From IMG/VR virus record IMGVR_UViG_3300020450_000024, positions 1 to 60,096 of that record: DNA of 60,096 nucleotides; one strand, 5' to 3'. The first letter of the stretch is position 1, and each line of letters begins with the position of its first letter. This stretch comes from a virus. The notes below the pieces were generated by a model that was given only the letters and a program-made list of their open reading frames with translations, made no database searches and had not been told where the DNA came from. Positions 12,931 to 57,090 of the stretch are shown here, piece by piece. A program made the position numbers and the translations under genes.

Positions 12931-13107
12931 TTAAAAGAACGGCATTTTTGTTTTTTTAGTTGTTTCTAAATTATCGTTAATAATCTTTGAAAATATTTCA
13001 CGATCCTCTGGCCCCATTTCGTATGCTTCAGACAAGGTTACACTGCCTCTCATATACCAACATATTTTACCAATGGTATGTTTGAGTTCCTTGCACTGGC
13101 CTTCCAT
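12931..13107 (-). CDS. Conserved small baseplate-region protein (58 aa) or -1 frameshift extension of the gp26-like protein
   Basis: A 58-aa protein from the ATG at 13107 (GAGG 8 nt upstream): 'GKICWYMRGSVTLSEAYEMG' then 'EDREIFSKIINDN' and a 'MPFF' end. T4-like cyanophages carry a similar short protein with a WYMRG motif behind gp26, to my memory. The open frame extends upstream without a stop to 13161 and beyond, through 'LTWPVKKILDEVRS', which also reads like real protein. It joins the gp26-like frame by a -1 shift at a slippery run (13170-13161). So the product may be a separate protein, a C-terminal extension, or both. Coding potential is convincing; the start is not settled. Confidence 0.7.
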   Translation of the reverse strand: MEGQCKELKHTIGKICWYMRGSVTLSEAYEMGPEDREIFSKIINDNLETTKKTKMPFF

Positions 13108-13154
13108 GGACCTTACCTCATCAAGAATTTTCTTGACTGGCCACGTTAAGATCC

Positions 13155-14048
13155 TTACGCGAAAAAATTTGACTGATCAAATGAAATTGGCACAGTAAAA
13201 GTTTCCGGGGCTCCTGCTTTGATTTCCTCGTCTGTTGCTTTTACAACCATAGGCTGAGTTTGAAATTTTTCCTTGTTATCATTTACGTGCTTTTTAATTG
13301 CATTGAAAACTTTTGCATCTGCACTATCAATAAATTCTGCAATATGAATTGGGTTTTTAACCGGTGTTTCATTTTGCCATTGAATAGATACAATAGCATC
13401 TTTCATAATCGCAACATTTAGTTCAGTTAATTTTTTAAAACTGTTGTTGAATAATTCTAACTTTTTCTCTGCGTCAAAATCATCATTGTTCACATTTTGT
13501 AAAAGTCTTTGTTCTTCAAAAGTTTTAATTGCCATTTCTGTAAATGTTTTATAAGAGATAGGTTTCAGTGTAACTGTAAATCCATCTATATGCATTATGT
13601 CTTCAAACTTTGCATTAATGTAAGTATCAATTAAGATCTTACAATCTACTTCATAGTCTTTTTCTATTTTAGTATTAGGTATAGTAACCTTTACTTCAAG
13701 TTTTTCACCAAAGGTAGCCATTCTAATTGCGACAAGTAAGCAATCTAAATCTACTGACGGTACTGCCCAAGCATTTTTAATTGCTGGTGCACAACTTTGT
13801 ATCACGTCTACAACTGATTGCCCATTTAAAAGTGCATCAGGTGTCTTGAACGTAAGTTCATCTTTTGCCGTCATAGAGTAGATTGGTATTTCTCCGTTTT
13901 CAGGCATATCAATAGCACCATTGGGATACCAACGTCCTTGACTAGGCAACTTCAGATAGATCTTAGGCTGTCTAAAGTGTTTCTGTAACGGATTTTGTCC
14001 CAAGGGTTGAACTGGTGTTCCTGCCTGTGGTACATTTTTATTATCCAT
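13155..14048 (-). CDS. gp26: Baseplate hub assembly protein gp26-like
   Basis: A 297-aa protein with ATG at 14048 and AGGAG a few nt upstream. Residues 25-85 carry the hallmark of the T4 gp26 family: 'RQPKIYLKLPSQGRWYP' then 'GEIPIYSMTAKDELTFKTPD' and 'GQSVVDVIQSCAP'. T4 gp26 (208 aa) is needed to assemble the central hub around the tape-measure protein; here the tape-measure candidate is the divergent neighbour at 14119. The gene has its own perfect late promoter (TATAAATA, 14091-14084 on the minus strand). Its last codons (AAT TTT TTC GCG TAA) contain two overlapping -1 slippery heptamers just before the stop, with an open -1 frame of 76 codons beyond. Confidence 0.85.
   Translation of the reverse strand: MDNKNVPQAGTPVQPLGQNPLQKHFRQPKIYLKLPSQGRWYPNGAIDMPENGEIPIYSMTAKDELTFKTPDALLNGQSVVDVIQSCAPAIKNAWAVPSVDLDCLLVAIRMATFGEKLEVKVTIPNTKIEKDYEVDCKILIDTYINAKFEDIMHIDGFTVTLKPISYKTFTEMAIKTFEEQRLLQNVNNDDFDAEKKLELFNNSFKKLTELNVAIMKDAIVSIQWQNETPVKNPIHIAEFIDSADAKVFNAIKKHVNDNKEKFQTQPMVVKATDEEIKAGAPETFTVPISFDQSNFFA
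13161..13170 (-). other. Putative -1 ribosomal frameshift site (AAATTTTTTC)
   Basis: Read in the gp26-like frame, this is A AAT TTT and T TTT TTC, both of the X XXY YYZ type. It lies two codons before the gp26-like stop. A -1 slip enters CGC GTA AGG and continues open for 76 codons to the stop at 12931, giving a ~372-aa fusion. Confidence 0.45.
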
Positions 14049-14118: not shown

Positions 14119-16281
14119 ATGGCAGTACAAGTTGACATTCCAGGAGTAGGTGCGGTTATAGCCAAAAATGCGGCACAAGAGGATACACTTAAAGAAATCC
14201 TTAAAGCATTAAAGAGCCGTGGCGGTACCGGTGGCGGAGGATCTGGCGGCGGACAAGGCGCAGGAGCCGGTGGAATGGGTCCTAACATGAAGAAAGCCAA
14301 TAAGGAAACTGGCGAATTCAGTAAAAAGATTGGGGAAACAACTACACTTGTTGATGATTTTGGTAGCGGATTAAGAAAAGCAACCAAAGGATTACTAGGT
14401 TTTGCCGGAGACTTACTAGGTTCAGCATACGATTTTGGAGAAACATTACTATTCACTGGTAATAGAATGAGTGATCTAGCAGGTGCTATACCGCTTGTTG
14501 GAGGGCCTTTAGGATCTTTAGTTGGATTAGCAGAGGGACTAGTAGATAATTTTAGAAACTTATCAGAATCAGGTGCTGGATTTTCAAACAACATTTTCAA
14601 TATTGCTAGAGCGGCCGCAAATGCAGAAATGCCATTAGGAATGTTTGCAGAAACAGTAGCAAACAATTCTAATGAATTGTCAAGGCTAGGAGGCAGTGTT
14701 ACAGAAGGTGCTAAACGTTTTGGTAGAATCAGTAAAAATTTAAGAACTAGCGAACAAGATTTCTTAGGCATGGGTTATACCATGGAAGGTGTAAATGAAG
14801 GTTTAATTGCTTATACCGAAGAAATGGCAAGAAGTGGTAGATTACGTGGAATGAGTGATGCACAATTGACTCAAGGTGCAGGTGTCTACTTAATGGAACT
14901 TGACAAGTTAGCAAAAGTAACAGGTATGACTCGTAAAGAGGCAGAAGCGGCTAGGGTGCAACAGCAAGGCGATGCCAGAATGAGAAATATGATCAATAAG
15001 TTAGAAGGAAAAGCACGAGAAAACTTAACCAACAGTTTAGCATTCTTAGATAATAAAGTGCCTGGACTTTCTGATGCATTTAAAGACTTGGCAGACGGTG
15101 CCGCTCAAACTGAAGAAGGTATGATGTTAATGGCTATGGGCGGTGACGAGTTTGTTAAACTTGCACAAGAAATGGCATCAGGTGAACTTGATCCTGCAGA
15201 ACTTAACAACAGGTTGATGGAACTTGCTCCACTTATTGAAAAGAATACAAAGAATATGAGTGATGCACAGTTACAAGCACTAGAACAAACTAATCCTGCA
15301 TTATACAAAATTTTAAGTAGTAACTCAGACCTATTAGCATTAACTAAAAAAGATGCTGAAAAGATTGCAGAAGAGAATAAATCAAGAGACGGTGTAACAC
15401 AATCATTAGCACAGGTAGAACAGAACCTTGCAACTATTAGAGGTAACTTATTTTCAGCATTTTTAGAAAGTGATATATTTAAAATGGTTACTGATGCACT
15501 TGGCGATTTAATGCCTAAGACGGAAGATGTAAGTGTAATGATGGAAAAATTAAAACCTCATGTAGAATCAGTCATAGAAAGTTTTACAAAATTTGTAAAT
15601 GACTTTATGGCAGATCCCGCAGGCACGTTTGAAAAGATTGTAGATAATATCAAGACTTATGTGTCAGACTTCTTCTCAAGTATGTTTGATGGTTTAGGAA
15701 CTAAGATTGCCACAGGTATATTAGCAGGATTGTTACTAATGGTTACAGGTGTTATAACAGGACCGTTCTTAGCCATTGGAGCAGGATTGGCATTGATATT
15801 TGGTGCAGACAAAATACTAGAATTAGGTAACAAATATATTTGGGAACCAATAAAAGGTATGTTTGGTTGGTTAGGAGATTGGTTTGGAAGTTTATGGGAA
15901 TCAATAAAAGGTTTTGGTAGTAAACTTAATCCGTTAAATTGGTTTGGTGGAGATGACGAAGAACAAGAGCAAAAAGTATCAGAAGCATACGAACCTGATG
16001 CTCCTTCAATTAAAAAAGCGGCAATGTCTGTGCCAGATACTGACACAACTGTTACCAAAGTTTCCGCAGAAGATGTAGATGCGGCACTCAAAGCATCAAA
16101 AGAAAATGATAAGAAGGTCAAAGAGCAGGCCAATAAGGCAATGGCTGATTCTAACAAGTCGGTAAATACTAACGAAAGCGGTAATATGCAGTTAGCACTT
16201 TTACAAGAACAAAATGAATTGCTACGTGCATTACTAAGAACAACAAAGAGTAACACTTCGGATATGTATTCGAGTGCATAA
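14119..16281 (+). CDS. Putative tail tape-measure / baseplate hub protein (720 aa)
   Basis: The protein has a short N-terminal domain, then a Gly-rich linker (residues ~35-55), a long mainly helical body with many Asn/Glu/Lys/Leu positions, and two adjacent hydrophobic segments at about residues 525-560 ('ATGILAGLLLMVTGVITGPF' and 'AIGAGLALIFGA'). A Trp-rich stretch follows ('MFGWLGDWFGSLWESIKGFG'), then a charged C-terminus predicted to form a coiled coil ('QLALLQEQNELLRALLR'). Long helices, membrane-like segments and a position beside the gp26-like hub-assembly gene and portal fit a tape-measure protein (T4 gp29, 590 aa). I see no direct sequence match to T4 gp29, so this is a functional inference. 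Confidence 0.6.
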   Translation: MAVQVDIPGVGAVIAKNAAQEDTLKEILKALKSRGGTGGGGSGGGQGAGAGGMGPNMKKANKETGEFSKKIGETTTLVDDFGSGLRKATKGLLGFAGDLLGSAYDFGETLLFTGNRMSDLAGAIPLVGGPLGSLVGLAEGLVDNFRNLSESGAGFSNNIFNIARAAANAEMPLGMFAETVANNSNELSRLGGSVTEGAKRFGRISKNLRTSEQDFLGMGYTMEGVNEGLIAYTEEMARSGRLRGMSDAQLTQGAGVYLMELDKLAKVTGMTRKEAEAARVQQQGDARMRNMINKLEGKARENLTNSLAFLDNKVPGLSDAFKDLADGAAQTEEGMMLMAMGGDEFVKLAQEMASGELDPAELNNRLMELAPLIEKNTKNMSDAQLQALEQTNPALYKILSSNSDLLALTKKDAEKIAEENKSRDGVTQSLAQVEQNLATIRGNLFSAFLESDIFKMVTDALGDLMPKTEDVSVMMEKLKPHVESVIESFTKFVNDFMADPAGTFEKIVDNIKTYVSDFFSSMFDGLGTKIATGILAGLLLMVTGVITGPFLAIGAGLALIFGADKILELGNKYIWEPIKGMFGWLGDWFGSLWESIKGFGSKLNPLNWFGGDDEEQEQKVSEAYEPDAPSIKKAAMSVPDTDTTVTKVSAEDVDAALKASKENDKKVKEQANKAMADSNKSVNTNESGNMQLALLQEQNELLRALLRTTKSNTSDMYSSA

Positions 16282-48641: not shown

Positions 48642-49373
48642 ATGTCATCATTAAGAGCATTTTTAAATGACGTAGCGCCTATCAAGGGTGGGGTTACCAA
48701 CCAAGTATGGATCTACAGAAAAGATGATAACATAGGTAACGGCGGTAGATGTTGCTTATGGACCGTACCTACCGGAAAAGTAAACGTCACATTTGAACTA
48801 TGGGGCGGCGGCGGAGGCGGCGGTGGCGGATGCTGTTGTCAGTTTCCAAATAGACCAGCCTCTGGTGGAGCATACGCGATAAGAACAGTCCAAACAACAG
48901 CAGGAAATCAATATACGGTTTGTGCTGGTGGTTCTACTCCTTGTTGTTGTCACGGATGTTTAGGTGGTGACGGTTATCCAAGTTTTGTTACAGGCTCAAG
49001 TATTCCAACAACGTGTGCACCGGGTGGTTGCGGTGGCAAACAATGTTGCTTTACTGATGCTTACACTTGTCACCCAAGTTTCGTATATAGTTGCGGAACA
49101 GGTGATTGGGGACTTCCAAGAGTAACTGGAAGTGCAAAAAGATCTCAGTACTGTCACAATCAAATGTGGACATGGACTGGTGGTACACCAATATTTGGTG
49201 GACAAAGAAAAAGTAAAGACTGGTGTGCAGGTAACTTTACAAACACGGGATCGTGTTTTAGTTGTCTAGCAGAATTCCCAGGCGGTGGTGGAGGCTCAGG
49301 TGCGGCCTGTGGTAATCCATGCTGTTGGGGAGGCTGGGGACAAGCCGGCGCAGTCAAAATATCGTATAGTTAG
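48642..49373 (+). CDS. Cys/Gly-rich adhesin-like protein A (243 aa, 23 Cys)
   Basis: I count 23 cysteines in 243 residues. Order: 'MSSLRAFLNDVAP' N-terminus, 'GGRCCLWTVPTGKVNVTFEL' then 'WGGGGGGGGGCCCQ', 'TVCAGGSTPCCCHGC', several single Cys, then 'FPGGGGGSGAACGNPCC' and a final beta-strand 'GAVKISYS'. The G-rich loops flanked by Trp and Phe-Pro recall the glycine-rich motifs of T-even gp38-type adhesins and other Gly-rich fibre-tip proteins, but the Cys content is unlike them. Two paralogues at 50092 and 50842 keep the same Cys pattern. Metal binding or disulfide cross-linking after release is possible. No family is recognised. Confidence 0.7.
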   Translation: MSSLRAFLNDVAPIKGGVTNQVWIYRKDDNIGNGGRCCLWTVPTGKVNVTFELWGGGGGGGGGCCCQFPNRPASGGAYAIRTVQTTAGNQYTVCAGGSTPCCCHGCLGGDGYPSFVTGSSIPTTCAPGGCGGKQCCFTDAYTCHPSFVYSCGTGDWGLPRVTGSAKRSQYCHNQMWTWTGGTPIFGGQRKSKDWCAGNFTNTGSCFSCLAEFPGGGGGSGAACGNPCCWGGWGQAGAVKISYS

Positions 49374-49397
49374 GAAGGGAAATAGGAGACTTAAATT

Positions 49398-50090
49398 ATG
49401 CCAAATACTATAATTGAAAAAGACTTTACCTATAATATCCCTGATGATTATCTGGCGCAGACTAACAACGACAGTAAAACTGCTGAGGCGACTTTTAAAG
49501 GCCCGGATAAGATTTGGATATTTGTAGATAAAGATACAGGCAAATCTACTAGAAGTAGACTATTGCTTACAGAAGAGGAGAACGGAGCAGACTTTCCAAC
49601 TCCTGAAGATCAGTTTAAAATCGAAGTTGATTGTGCAACTGATCCTACAATATGTTCTTTATGGGATACAACTGAATGGGAAACTGTTAAAAATCAAACT
49701 CAACTAGTAGTGGATTTGCCAGATGGAACTACTTATGAGAGACCAGAACCAACAGATGTTGATCATACATATGAATTAGATGATTGTGTTTATAACATGG
49801 ACGGAACATTGTCAGCAGATGGTACAACTTACACAGGTGGTACTTGGACAATGGCTTGGAAACAACCTTGGAGTTCATGGGATGAATTAATCTTAGTAAG
49901 AAACAATTTGCTTACTGGATCTGATGCCAAAATTGCAGAAGATATGCCAGAAGCAACAAAAACAGTATGGAAAGAATACAGACAAAAGTTGAGAGACTTA
50001 CCTGCTACTTTTAAAAGAGGTACAGCAGAAGAGTTTCCAGCACACATGGTAAACTTTCCAGTAGAACCAGGCGCGGATTTAGGAGAATAA
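49398..50090 (+). CDS. Tail-fibre assembly chaperone-like protein 1 (230 aa)
   Basis: N-terminal half: 'DKIWIFVDKDTGKSTRSRLL' and 'DCATDPTICSLWDTTEW'. C-terminal half: 'RNNLLTGSDAKIAEDMPEA' followed by 'YRQKLRDLP', the R..LL..(S/T)D......P......YRQ.LRDLP signature of the phage tail assembly chaperone family (Phage_tail_APC; also at the end of Tfa-type proteins). It stands between the Cys-rich proteins A and B, so it may fold or attach one of them. The 51580 product is a paralogue. SD GGAGA upstream. Confidence 0.72.
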   Translation: MPNTIIEKDFTYNIPDDYLAQTNNDSKTAEATFKGPDKIWIFVDKDTGKSTRSRLLLTEEENGADFPTPEDQFKIEVDCATDPTICSLWDTTEWETVKNQTQLVVDLPDGTTYERPEPTDVDHTYELDDCVYNMDGTLSADGTTYTGGTWTMAWKQPWSSWDELILVRNNLLTGSDAKIAEDMPEATKTVWKEYRQKLRDLPATFKRGTAEEFPAHMVNFPVEPGADLGE

Positions 50091-50091
50091 G

Positions 50092-50832
50092 ATGGCCTCA
50101 TTAAGGACATTATTACAGTACGGTACTAGTTCAGCAGGGTCTGATCCATTAAGAAGTTTGCGAGTTTATAATACAAGTATTACATCCGCAAACAATGGAG
50201 GACAATGTTGTCAGTGGACTGCACCTACAGGAGTTACTTGGGTCGCTTTCGAAATTTGGGGAGGCGGTGGACCAGGTGCTGGTGTATGTTGTTGCCAACA
50301 AGGTTGGGCCGGTGGTAGTGGTTCTTATGCAAGACGTATTATTACAGCGTCAGCAGGTGATCAATTTACTTTATGTGCGGCAGGTACTACTTGCTGTCAC
50401 TCAAGATGTTATCCATGCAGAGGATTTCCTAGTTACGTATGTGGACCAGGCGGATTCTGTATGTGTGTATCCGGTGGAGCGGAAACGGCTTCTAAATGTT
50501 TTTGGAGTCAAGGATGTTCTTACTCAGGATGTCAACAATTTAACTGTGGTTGTGTAAACGGTGGTACATTATCATTCTGTGGTACAACAGGTGGCGGACA
50601 TGGTTCTTCACACTGTGCCTCTGATATGCACCAGTTTATACCAAGTGCACCTTTAACAGCACCAACTAGAATGTCTAGAAACGGTTGCTACAAAACACAC
50701 GGACAAGATCATGGAGATCACGGTGTGTTCCCAGGAGGTGGTGGTGCATCAGGTGTAACACACAACGAAACTTGTTATTGCGGAGCGAAAGGAATGGGCG
50801 GTTTAGTAACACTTTACTTTGCACACCCATAA
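50092..50832 (+). CDS. Cys/Gly-rich adhesin-like protein B (246 aa, 23 Cys)
   Basis: I count 23 cysteines. It keeps the framework of protein A: 'GGQCCQWTAPTGVTWVAFEI' then 'WGGGGPGAGVCCCQ', 'TLCAAGTTCCHSRCYPC', several single Cys in a Gly/Ser/His-rich middle and 'FPGGGGASGVTHNETCYCG' before the last strand. The middle is much more divergent than the ends, including His-rich 'GQDHGDHG', as expected for a receptor-contacting region. It follows the chaperone-like gene by one base and precedes protein C by 9 nt. Confidence 0.7.
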   Translation: MASLRTLLQYGTSSAGSDPLRSLRVYNTSITSANNGGQCCQWTAPTGVTWVAFEIWGGGGPGAGVCCCQQGWAGGSGSYARRIITASAGDQFTLCAAGTTCCHSRCYPCRGFPSYVCGPGGFCMCVSGGAETASKCFWSQGCSYSGCQQFNCGCVNGGTLSFCGTTGGGHGSSHCASDMHQFIPSAPLTAPTRMSRNGCYKTHGQDHGDHGVFPGGGGASGVTHNETCYCGAKGMGGLVTLYFAHP

Positions 50833-50841
50833 GGAGAAGTT

Positions 50842-51564
50842 ATGAGTAGTTTAAGACAATTTTTATTTGGATATGCAGAAGAAAAATCTGTTCCTCAAGA
50901 ACTTGCAGTATATAACACTTCTACAACTTCTGTAAACAACGGAGGTAGATGTTGTCTATGGACTGTGCCTGCAGGAACAAGTTACGCAATATTTGAATTA
51001 TGGGGCGGTGGTGCTTCAGGAGATGGTGCTTGTTGTTGTCAAATGGGATATCCATCAACTTCAGGATCATACGGACAAAAAGCATTATCAGTAGAGGCTG
51101 GTCAACAAGTTACAATTTGTGCGGCTGGAACTACTTGTTGTAGACAAAAAGGAAACTGTCAACAAGGTTATGACACTTATGTATGTAGATCAGGTAACTG
51201 GTGTGCAAGAGCCTGTGGCGGTAGAGTTATGCGTACAGAATGTTTCATGTATAGAACGTGTTATTCATGTTGTAGAATGGAATATTGTGTACACGGATAT
51301 TCAGGTATGGACTTTGGTTTAGGTGCAACACAGGCATCTTCACAGTTAAGTCAATACTGTCATGATAGAGGTAATATGTATGTAACACAAAACGTTGCAC
51401 AAGGATCACCAAGAAACGGACCTAACGGTTGTTGTGCTTGGGGTGGATCACAAGGGTTTGGACTATTTCCAGGTGGTGGCGGAATGTCAGCACAGGTATT
51501 TGGCGAGCCATGTTGTTGTGGATCACCAGGCGGTGGTGGACTAGTGTACGTGGTGTACTATTAA
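50842..51564 (+). CDS. Cys/Gly-rich adhesin-like protein C (240 aa, 23 Cys)
   Basis: Again 23 cysteines by my count: 'GGRCCLWTVPAGTSYAIFEL' then 'WGGGASGDGACCCQMG', 'TICAAGTTCCRQKGNC', single Cys in the variable middle, 'GCCAWGG', 'FPGGGGMSAQVFGEPCCCG' and the final strand. AAGGAGA precedes the ATG. N-terminus 'MSSLRQFLFGYAEE' parallels that of protein A ('MSSLRAFLNDVAP'). B and C are adjacent, so tandem duplication is the simplest origin. It is followed by the second chaperone-like gene. Confidence 0.7.
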   Translation: MSSLRQFLFGYAEEKSVPQELAVYNTSTTSVNNGGRCCLWTVPAGTSYAIFELWGGGASGDGACCCQMGYPSTSGSYGQKALSVEAGQQVTICAAGTTCCRQKGNCQQGYDTYVCRSGNWCARACGGRVMRTECFMYRTCYSCCRMEYCVHGYSGMDFGLGATQASSQLSQYCHDRGNMYVTQNVAQGSPRNGPNGCCAWGGSQGFGLFPGGGGMSAQVFGEPCCCGSPGGGGLVYVVYY

Positions 51565-55275: not shown

Positions 55276-57090
55276 ATGAAAAAACCAAGTCAGTGGATTG
55301 CCGCAATAGCCAGAGGACACAACGCAGGAGTTTGTTTACTTAAAGATGGCAAAGTTATATTTTCTATAGAAGAAGAAAGATTAAGTAGACACAAATACGA
55401 TGGTGGTCCATATGCGTCTATGATGAAAATATTAGATTACACAGATAAATTAGATTATCTTGTAGTAGCACATACACAAACATTAGATGCAACAGCAGGT
55501 AGAGTAGACTTTACTGGTGATGATGTTTACACAGGACTTGCACGTAAGATGGGATTAATTGATAGAAATCCTAAATTGCTACCTAAACATCCACAGGTTG
55601 TTGACCTAAGTTATTTTCACCATAAATTACACGCCGCTTTAAGTTTTTATAATAGTGGATTCGAAGATGCAGTTGCAGTAATTGTTGATGGAGCAGGAAC
55701 TTTCTTTAATGCTAACATGGGTGGCGATCCTAATGACAGTGTTACACTTTGGGAAACAGAATCTATTTTTGATTGTCAGTATCCTGTAGACTTTAAAACT
55801 TTATACAAACATTTAGGAACAACAGGTCCATTATTAGGAGCAGAATATCAAAACTTTAGTGGAGATTTTTTTGCAGAAAAAGACAACGTTCCTGAAATAG
55901 TAATTAGTGAAACAGCAGGAATAGTAAAAACATACGAAGCAGTAACAGATTATTGTGGATTTAGTTTTATTGAAGCAGGAAAAACTATGGGATTGTTTCC
56001 ATATGGTGAACATCCTAAAGAAGTTCCTTCGTTGTTTACAAAAGGACAAACACATCCATTGAGTGATAGAAATGTTATTGTGCCAACTTATCCTAATGGT
56101 GCATTAGTAAATAGAAATTATTTTGAATTTTTAAGAGACAGACATGACCAAGATGAAGATGTAACAAAATTAAAGAATCGTAGAGATATGGCTTTTGCTG
56201 TACAAACACAAACACAAGAACAAGTTACAAATTTAATTAGAAAAGCAGTAGCAATGAGTGGTAAAAAGAATGTTGTATTAAGTGGAGGTTATGGACTTAA
56301 CTGTGTTGCAAATTATCATTACTTAGAAGCACTAAAAAATGAAGGAATTAATTTGTATGTCGAACCTGTTTCTAATGATGCAGGAACGGCCATGGGTGCG
56401 GCATTATTACAATACAGAACAATAACAAGAGATAGAACAGTAAATCAACAAGTTGATACACTATATAATGGACCAACTTACACATATGACGAAAACCAAT
56501 TTAAAGAACTAGCAGAAAAATACGAAGCAAAAATAGATGACGAAATAGAAAACGATTCAGTAGTAGAATTAATTAGAAATAAAAATATAGTTGCTATTTT
56601 CCAAGGCGGAAGTGAAAACGGACCACGTGCATTAGGTAACAGAAGTTTACTATTTGATCCATCATATGAAGATGGTAAAGATTATGTAAACAAAGTAAAA
56701 CGTAGAGAATATTTTAGACCATTTGCAGGAACAATATTAGAAGAAGATGCTCATGAATGGTTTGATTTACGGGGTATGAAAAATTCTCCAACTATGATGT
56801 ATGCAGTAAATTGTCAACCTGGCATTGCAGAAAAAATACCAAGCATAATTCACGTTGATGGTACTTGTAGAATACAAACAGTTAGTGAAAAACAGAACAA
56901 AAATTACTATGATTTAATCAAAGCATTTAAGGAAAAAACTGGACTTCCTATTGTTTTTAACACTTCCTTTAATTTAGGTGGTGATCCATTGGTTGAAACA
57001 CTGGAAGATGCACTGCATACCCTAGCAAAAAGCGACATAGAGTACCTATATTTGCCCGAATACAAGACATTGTTTACAATTTCTAACTAG
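55276..57090 (+). CDS. NodU/CmcH-type O-carbamoyltransferase (604 aa)
   Basis: N-terminal half: 'ARGHNAGVCLLKDGKVIFSI' and 'EEERLSRHKYDGG', then 'YFHHKLHAALSFYNSGF' and 'VIVDGAG', the Kae1/TobZ-like carbamoyl-adenylate domain with metal-binding His residues. Middle: 'VLSGGYGLNCVANYHYLEAL' and 'PVSNDAGTAMGAAL'. C-terminal YrdC-like-linked part near residue 440: 'FQGGSENGPRALGNRSLLFD' and 'YFRPFAGTILEEDAHEWF', then 'NTSFNLGGDPLVETLEDAL'. All blocks of the NodU/TobZ/CmcH family are present at full length. The enzyme transfers carbamoyl from carbamoyl phosphate to a sugar hydroxyl. In this cassette the acceptor is probably a glycan. Confidence 0.9.
   Translation: MKKPSQWIAAIARGHNAGVCLLKDGKVIFSIEEERLSRHKYDGGPYASMMKILDYTDKLDYLVVAHTQTLDATAGRVDFTGDDVYTGLARKMGLIDRNPKLLPKHPQVVDLSYFHHKLHAALSFYNSGFEDAVAVIVDGAGTFFNANMGGDPNDSVTLWETESIFDCQYPVDFKTLYKHLGTTGPLLGAEYQNFSGDFFAEKDNVPEIVISETAGIVKTYEAVTDYCGFSFIEAGKTMGLFPYGEHPKEVPSLFTKGQTHPLSDRNVIVPTYPNGALVNRNYFEFLRDRHDQDEDVTKLKNRRDMAFAVQTQTQEQVTNLIRKAVAMSGKKNVVLSGGYGLNCVANYHYLEALKNEGINLYVEPVSNDAGTAMGAALLQYRTITRDRTVNQQVDTLYNGPTYTYDENQFKELAEKYEAKIDDEIENDSVVELIRNKNIVAIFQGGSENGPRALGNRSLLFDPSYEDGKDYVNKVKRREYFRPFAGTILEEDAHEWFDLRGMKNSPTMMYAVNCQPGIAEKIPSIIHVDGTCRIQTVSEKQNKNYYDLIKAFKEKTGLPIVFNTSFNLGGDPLVETLEDALHTLAKSDIEYLYLPEYKTLFTISN

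Follow-up and report, generated by a model that had tools for sequence, protein, structure and literature searches.

Comparative analysis of a gp26-like tail assembly chaperone gene with a predicted programmed -1 frameshift in an uncultured marine virus

The gp26-like gene in the window, by which we mean the whole 60,096-base stretch of viral DNA analysed here, almost certainly gives rise to two proteins of different length, the longer one through a programmed -1 slip beside its stop codon, as judged from the sequences of its relatives. Comparison of related loci shows the conserved slip site, the open -1 frame, the loss of a downstream start codon and the homology of the encoded domains. As a whole, the locus very likely belongs to a T4-like myovirus and encodes its tail assembly chaperone; gp26 and a slip-made gp26-X would both act on the tape measure protein. 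The features concerned are as follows:

13155-14048, minus strand: gp26-like tail assembly chaperone, short form (TAC-N, gpG-like), 297 aa; assigned by PF12322, phrog_150 and a structure model
13161-13167, minus strand: slippery heptamer T TTT TTC, read in the gp26 frame and kept in that phase at 270 of 273 loci (85 of 88 clusters)
13155-13160, minus strand: 6-nt spacer GCGTAA between heptamer and stem, including the gp26 stop codon
13108-13154, minus strand: predicted hairpin, candidate frameshift stimulator; folding z -2.78, mean z over clusters and helix covariation
12931-13161, minus strand: predicted extension in the -1 frame (TAC-C, T-like) of 76 codons and a stop, uninterrupted in all 85 slip-bearing clusters; alignment and four-helix model
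12931-13107, minus strand: ORF that a gene finder would call (WYMRG protein), 58 aa; its ATG is not conserved
14119-16281, plus strand: neighbouring gene in divergent orientation whose 720-aa product is a candidate tape measure protein; weakly similar to the RaK2 neighbour, in a position common to relatives

Family, fold and surroundings of the gp26-like gene

The gp26-like protein matched PF12322 (T4_baseplate) with an E-value of 1.8e-11, above the curated cut-off, and of 3.6e-13 in a second search, and it matched phrog_150 (baseplate hub) at 7.7e-16; only a single PF12322 copy was detected in the window, itself a virus record of 60,096 bases. Its structure model is confident (pLDDT 89) and matches T4-like baseplate hub assembly proteins, and a BFVD fold search with the model returned annotated tail assembly chaperones (E 0.02-0.05, probability 0.99-1.00), while neither a fold search of the PDB nor a sequence search returned a solved chaperone structure. 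Among named phages, the jumbo phages Phosso and Atu_ph07 are closest (30-35% identity), and PA5oct, PBECO4, RaK2 and others come next. The BFVD matches also included uncharacterised proteins of about 500 aa from the jumbo phages Erwinia Special G and phiEaH2 and Ralstonia RSF1 and RP12, which are, on the basis of the fold match, candidates for unrecognised tail chaperones.

The chaperone gene does not lie upstream of the candidate tape measure gene on the same strand; the two are adjacent and divergent, and the same layout was found in RaK2, PA5oct and PBECO4. The product of 14119-16281 shows weak similarity to its RaK2 counterpart, which is annotated as similar to tape measure, and also to the Phosso neighbour. 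Genes for gp46/47-like nuclease subunits, a portal, a head maturation protease and a major head protein are located near the locus. Elsewhere in the window, a Nol-like carbamoyltransferase (55276-57090, plus strand; phrog_1601, E 4.5e-161) stands as an auxiliary gene amid a structural region, and three related Cys-/Gly-rich proteins of about 240 aa, perhaps adhesins, are interleaved with other ORFs at 48642-51564 (plus strand).

The slip site

The gp26-like gene (14048 to 13155, minus strand) ends in TCA AAT TTT TTC GCG TAA. Related loci were collected by two IMG/VR scans with the proteins of the window, five with distant relatives, and from phage records, giving a set of 273 loci defined by a readable gp26 end. 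T TTT TTC stands in the gp26 phase in 270 of these; it is kept in 85 of the 88 clusters formed at 80% identity and in 13 of the 16 formed at 40%, and it persists among relatives down to 14-20% protein identity. In a single sequence the heptamer is unremarkable, TTTTTTC occurring 26 times within the whole window against 28.8 expected; it is the conservation in phase that goes beyond chance. Phe295 and Phe296 do not vary in a gp26 alignment spanning down to 14% identity, and of the 41 Phe-Phe pairs found elsewhere in these genes none is written TTT TTC (Phe codon use in the gene bodies: TTT 736, TTC 214).

The original prediction had named two heptamers, placed two codons before the stop. One of them, T TTT TTC, stood, although it ends one codon before the stop and not two. 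The other, A AAT TTT, was rejected as a slip site: the codon preceding TTT TTC is AAT in 42 clusters and GAT, AGT, ACT, CAT, TCT, CGT or TAT in 43 of the 85, so that this heptamer is not conserved.

Three loci of the set lack T TTT TTC, namely RL38J1 (T TTT TTG), Cygsa01 (ATT TTC) and L275, which carries an early stop that is perhaps an error. Variant heptamers with an open -1 frame were observed in RL38J1 and in Ochrobactrum phage OC (T TTT TTT). The gp26 ends of Vi01 (GAA ATT TTC ATT), Vibrio D506 (TCA CTT TTC AAG) and Cygsa01 (AGC ATT TTC ACC) are without T TTT TTC and share N NTT TTC A; the homologous -1 frame is open in all three, and Cygsa01 additionally has a TAATG overlap start. A single-codon slip like that of T7 gene 10 is possible at these loci.

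The -1 frame, the downstream hairpin and alternative readings

The -1 frame runs from C13161 to a stop at 12931-12933 and comprises 76 codons (13161-12934), reading RVRILTWPVKKILDEVRSMEGQCKEL...WYMRGSVTLSEAYEMGPEDREIF...MPFF, so that the frame is open as anticipated in the original prediction, and a fusion would have the 372 aa given there (296+76 = 372 aa). That prediction had also named relatives without the run, or with stops in the -1 frame, as evidence against it; the run is kept as described above, and in 85 of 85 slip-bearing clusters the frame continues without a stop for 58 codons or more past the slip, the contig ending first in one. The frame is exactly 76 codons long in 64 clusters while the zero-frame stop lies anywhere from 1 to 11 codons past the heptamer across the whole set, which suggests that the fused length is kept and not the distance to the stop. 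In several relatives, L079 and L082 among them, the -1 frame carries a stop immediately 5' of the slip site. An AlphaFold2 model of the 76-residue extension contains four helices (pLDDT 92), while a Pfam search with the extension gave chance matches only and a search of solved structures no useful match.

The window hairpin lies 6 nt past the heptamer, directly after GCGTAA, and its 3' arm overlaps a Shine-Dalgarno-like GAGGTAAGG located 5' of ATG 13107. Folding was scored as z against dinucleotide shuffles, and the 60 nt starting 5 nt past the heptamer had a mean z of -1.41 over the 85 clusters, whereas a control stretch taken from these genes scored 0.05 (Mann-Whitney p 5e-12, a value that ignores relatedness). 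The covariation of helix 13-21/52-60 (helix A) exceeded that of all 200 shuffles and all slid registers, while that of the competing register 12-19/36-43 was not above all 200 shuffles and slides. At this position other clades form their pairs from different bases, such as GGCTCTTAAC with GTTAAGAGCC in locus L069. Since RNAalifold gave no single consensus fold over the relatives, a role of the hairpin as slip stimulator is rated as probable.

The small protein might alternatively have a gene of its own, translated from ATG 13107 through reinitiation or from its own ribosome binding site, with the T run being incidental. The window and its nearest relatives do carry this ATG with GAGGTAAGG upstream, and some independent start may therefore occur additionally in some phages. 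In other relatives, however, the ATG is replaced by CTT, TTA, CTC, TAC and others; 20 of the 85 clusters have no ATG, GTG or TTG among the first 26 codons of the -1 frame, and the -1 frame of PA5oct holds no start codon over its whole length. The codons before the ATG are also conserved as protein, third positions being the most variable between slip and ATG, as in coding sequence (entropy 1.43, 1.01 and 1.63 for the three positions), and the modelled helix 9-37 of the extension passes through residue 19, where the ATG lies. The Shine-Dalgarno-like site, moreover, sits in the hairpin arm. The start at ATG 13107 was rejected as the sole source of the small protein because the start codon is not kept in relatives; a separate gene is a very improbable account of the locus, and the 58-aa WYMRG ORF is probably mainly the tail end of the fusion.

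Slippage of RNA polymerase on the T run would give a mixed mRNA population and hence both proteins, and six consecutive T do offer a run on which it could act. Six T is nevertheless short for transcriptional slippage, and the run has precisely this length in each of the 85 clusters, the T of the preceding NNT codon never having another T before it. The codon phase is fixed, the C after the run is kept and a G comes next in 83 of the 85 clusters, a pattern that tandem tRNA slippage demands, and we give polymerase slippage as little credence as a separate gene. A sequencing error or a decayed gene can create adjacent ORFs in different frames, but this is refuted by the recurrence of the frame relation in 85 clusters and also in complete genomes of isolates from several families, leaving it a negligible chance.

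With programmed -1 slippage preferred, most ribosomes would read gp26 to its own stop and make the gpG-like 297-aa protein, while a minority would slip by -1 at T TTT TTC, both Phe-tRNAs re-pairing with TTT TTT. Reading would then pick up at CGC and add 76 residues, giving a 372-aa gp26-X, gpGT-like and the equivalent of T4 gp51, and the hairpin 6 nt past the heptamer would probably boost the frequency of the slip. Both forms would coat the tape measure protein and then recruit the tail tube. The actual slippage and its rate, the part played by the hairpin and the binding to tape measure and tube are what we infer from these comparisons, and two chaperone forms acting on the tape measure are suggested by homology.

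Relation to T4 gp26/gp51 and to known systems

T4 gp26 and gp51 both match PF12322, and gp51 has 48 extra C-terminal residues past the profile match. On the columns of phrog_150, gp26 covers 14-235, gp51 13-280 and the -1-frame domain of phiAS5 236-281; phrog_634 (baseplate hub assembly catalyst) was matched by the phiAS5 and cyanophage -1 domains and by gp51. In hhalign comparisons, gp51 C-termini aligned with the Aeromonas/cyanophage -1 domains at 98% (E 9e-14) and only weakly with the window-clade extension alone (16%), while window-clade and jumbo-phage extensions aligned with each other at 98%. In each of the seven genomes bearing gene 51, PF12322 is present twice and gene 26 ends without a slip site; T4 gene 26 retains the Phe pair as TTC TTT. 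Frameshifting genomes have one PF12322 copy; the exception is SCTP-2, with a gp26 that has diverged beyond the reach of the profile. These comparisons support gp51 as a paralogue of gp26 whose C-terminal extension is homologous to the -1 domain of Aeromonas/cyanophage relatives, in line with the proposed link to the lambda G/GT chaperones through gp26 and gp51. The predicted 372-aa long product matches T4 gp51 in layout. T4 gp26 also gave a weak match to phrog_1140, the gp28 family (E 9e-4; T4 gene 28 lies at 8349-8882 of L163), and T4 gp28 may be a third chaperone paralogue.

According to a passage in Sullivan et al. 2010 (PMC3037559), cyanophage gp51 has about 20% of the usual length and gp51 is missing in Aeh1. 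The S-SSM5 'gp51' begins right after a gp26 ending AGT TTT TTC GGC TAG, and a 233,234-base record was found among the slip-bearing relatives of phiAS5. If gp51 is the shifted gp26 extension in these phages, the short cyanophage gp51 and the missing Aeh1 gp51 would both follow.

Frameshifting was reportedly found by Vladimirov, Gautam and Davidson (Virology 2022, 566:9-15) to be conserved in several T4-like groups, while T4 uses genes 26 and 51. A passage in Atkins et al. 2016 (PMC5009743) names T4 as an exception to G/GT frameshifting. As stated in two papers that cite Vladimirov, Gautam and Davidson 2022, some T4-like phages have a short gene and a fused long gene (PMC10885494), and poly-T sites are known in T4-like TAC-N genes (PMC12846349). 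The equivalent of G/GT, supposed in the original prediction to be hidden, is no longer so, having been published in 2022 for T4-like phages as cited there, and both the frameshift mechanism and the chaperone family are already known. What is added here is that the system reaches into an uncultured marine/jumbo lineage and that its site is strictly invariant, along with a candidate stimulatory stem and a deep alignment for seeking the control of the slip. A large uncultured share of T4-like phages appears to retain the frameshift lost by T4, which helps to explain why gene 51 seems shortened or missing in those phages, and in annotation both ORFs should be joined. More tentatively, and with somewhat less than even confidence, we suggest that the slip of the marine/jumbo lineage is driven by a previously undescribed hairpin 6 nt past the heptamer with clade-specific covarying pairing, and that T4-like phages have at least three routes to the chaperone pair: the tandem T TTT TTC slip, an N NTT TTC site (Ackermannviridae and relatives) and gene duplication (T-evens).

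Among known systems, T4 gp26/gp51 belongs to the same fold family, with gp51 being gp26-like with a C-terminal extension, but T4 encodes the two proteins separately and has lost the slip site. Lambda gpG/gpGT is alike in that an infrequent -1 slip close to where the first gene ends leads to a long form with a C-terminal domain; the lambda slip site is G GGA AAG. It differs in that no sequence similarity was seen, the window slip adjoins the stop and the window gene is divergent from the candidate tape measure gene. The T4-like TAC-N/TAC-NC pair (Vladimirov 2022) shares PF12322, phrog_150, the short and long forms and, as far as the citing papers describe them, the poly-T sites, whereas the lineage of the window is marine, uncultured and close to the jumbo phages, and its extension has diverged. 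The chaperone frameshift of Vandenendeviridae and Andersonviridae, as outlined in PMC12846349, likewise has a conserved poly-T site and a -1 frame open across divergent genomes, but with a GTTTTT motif and in other phage families.
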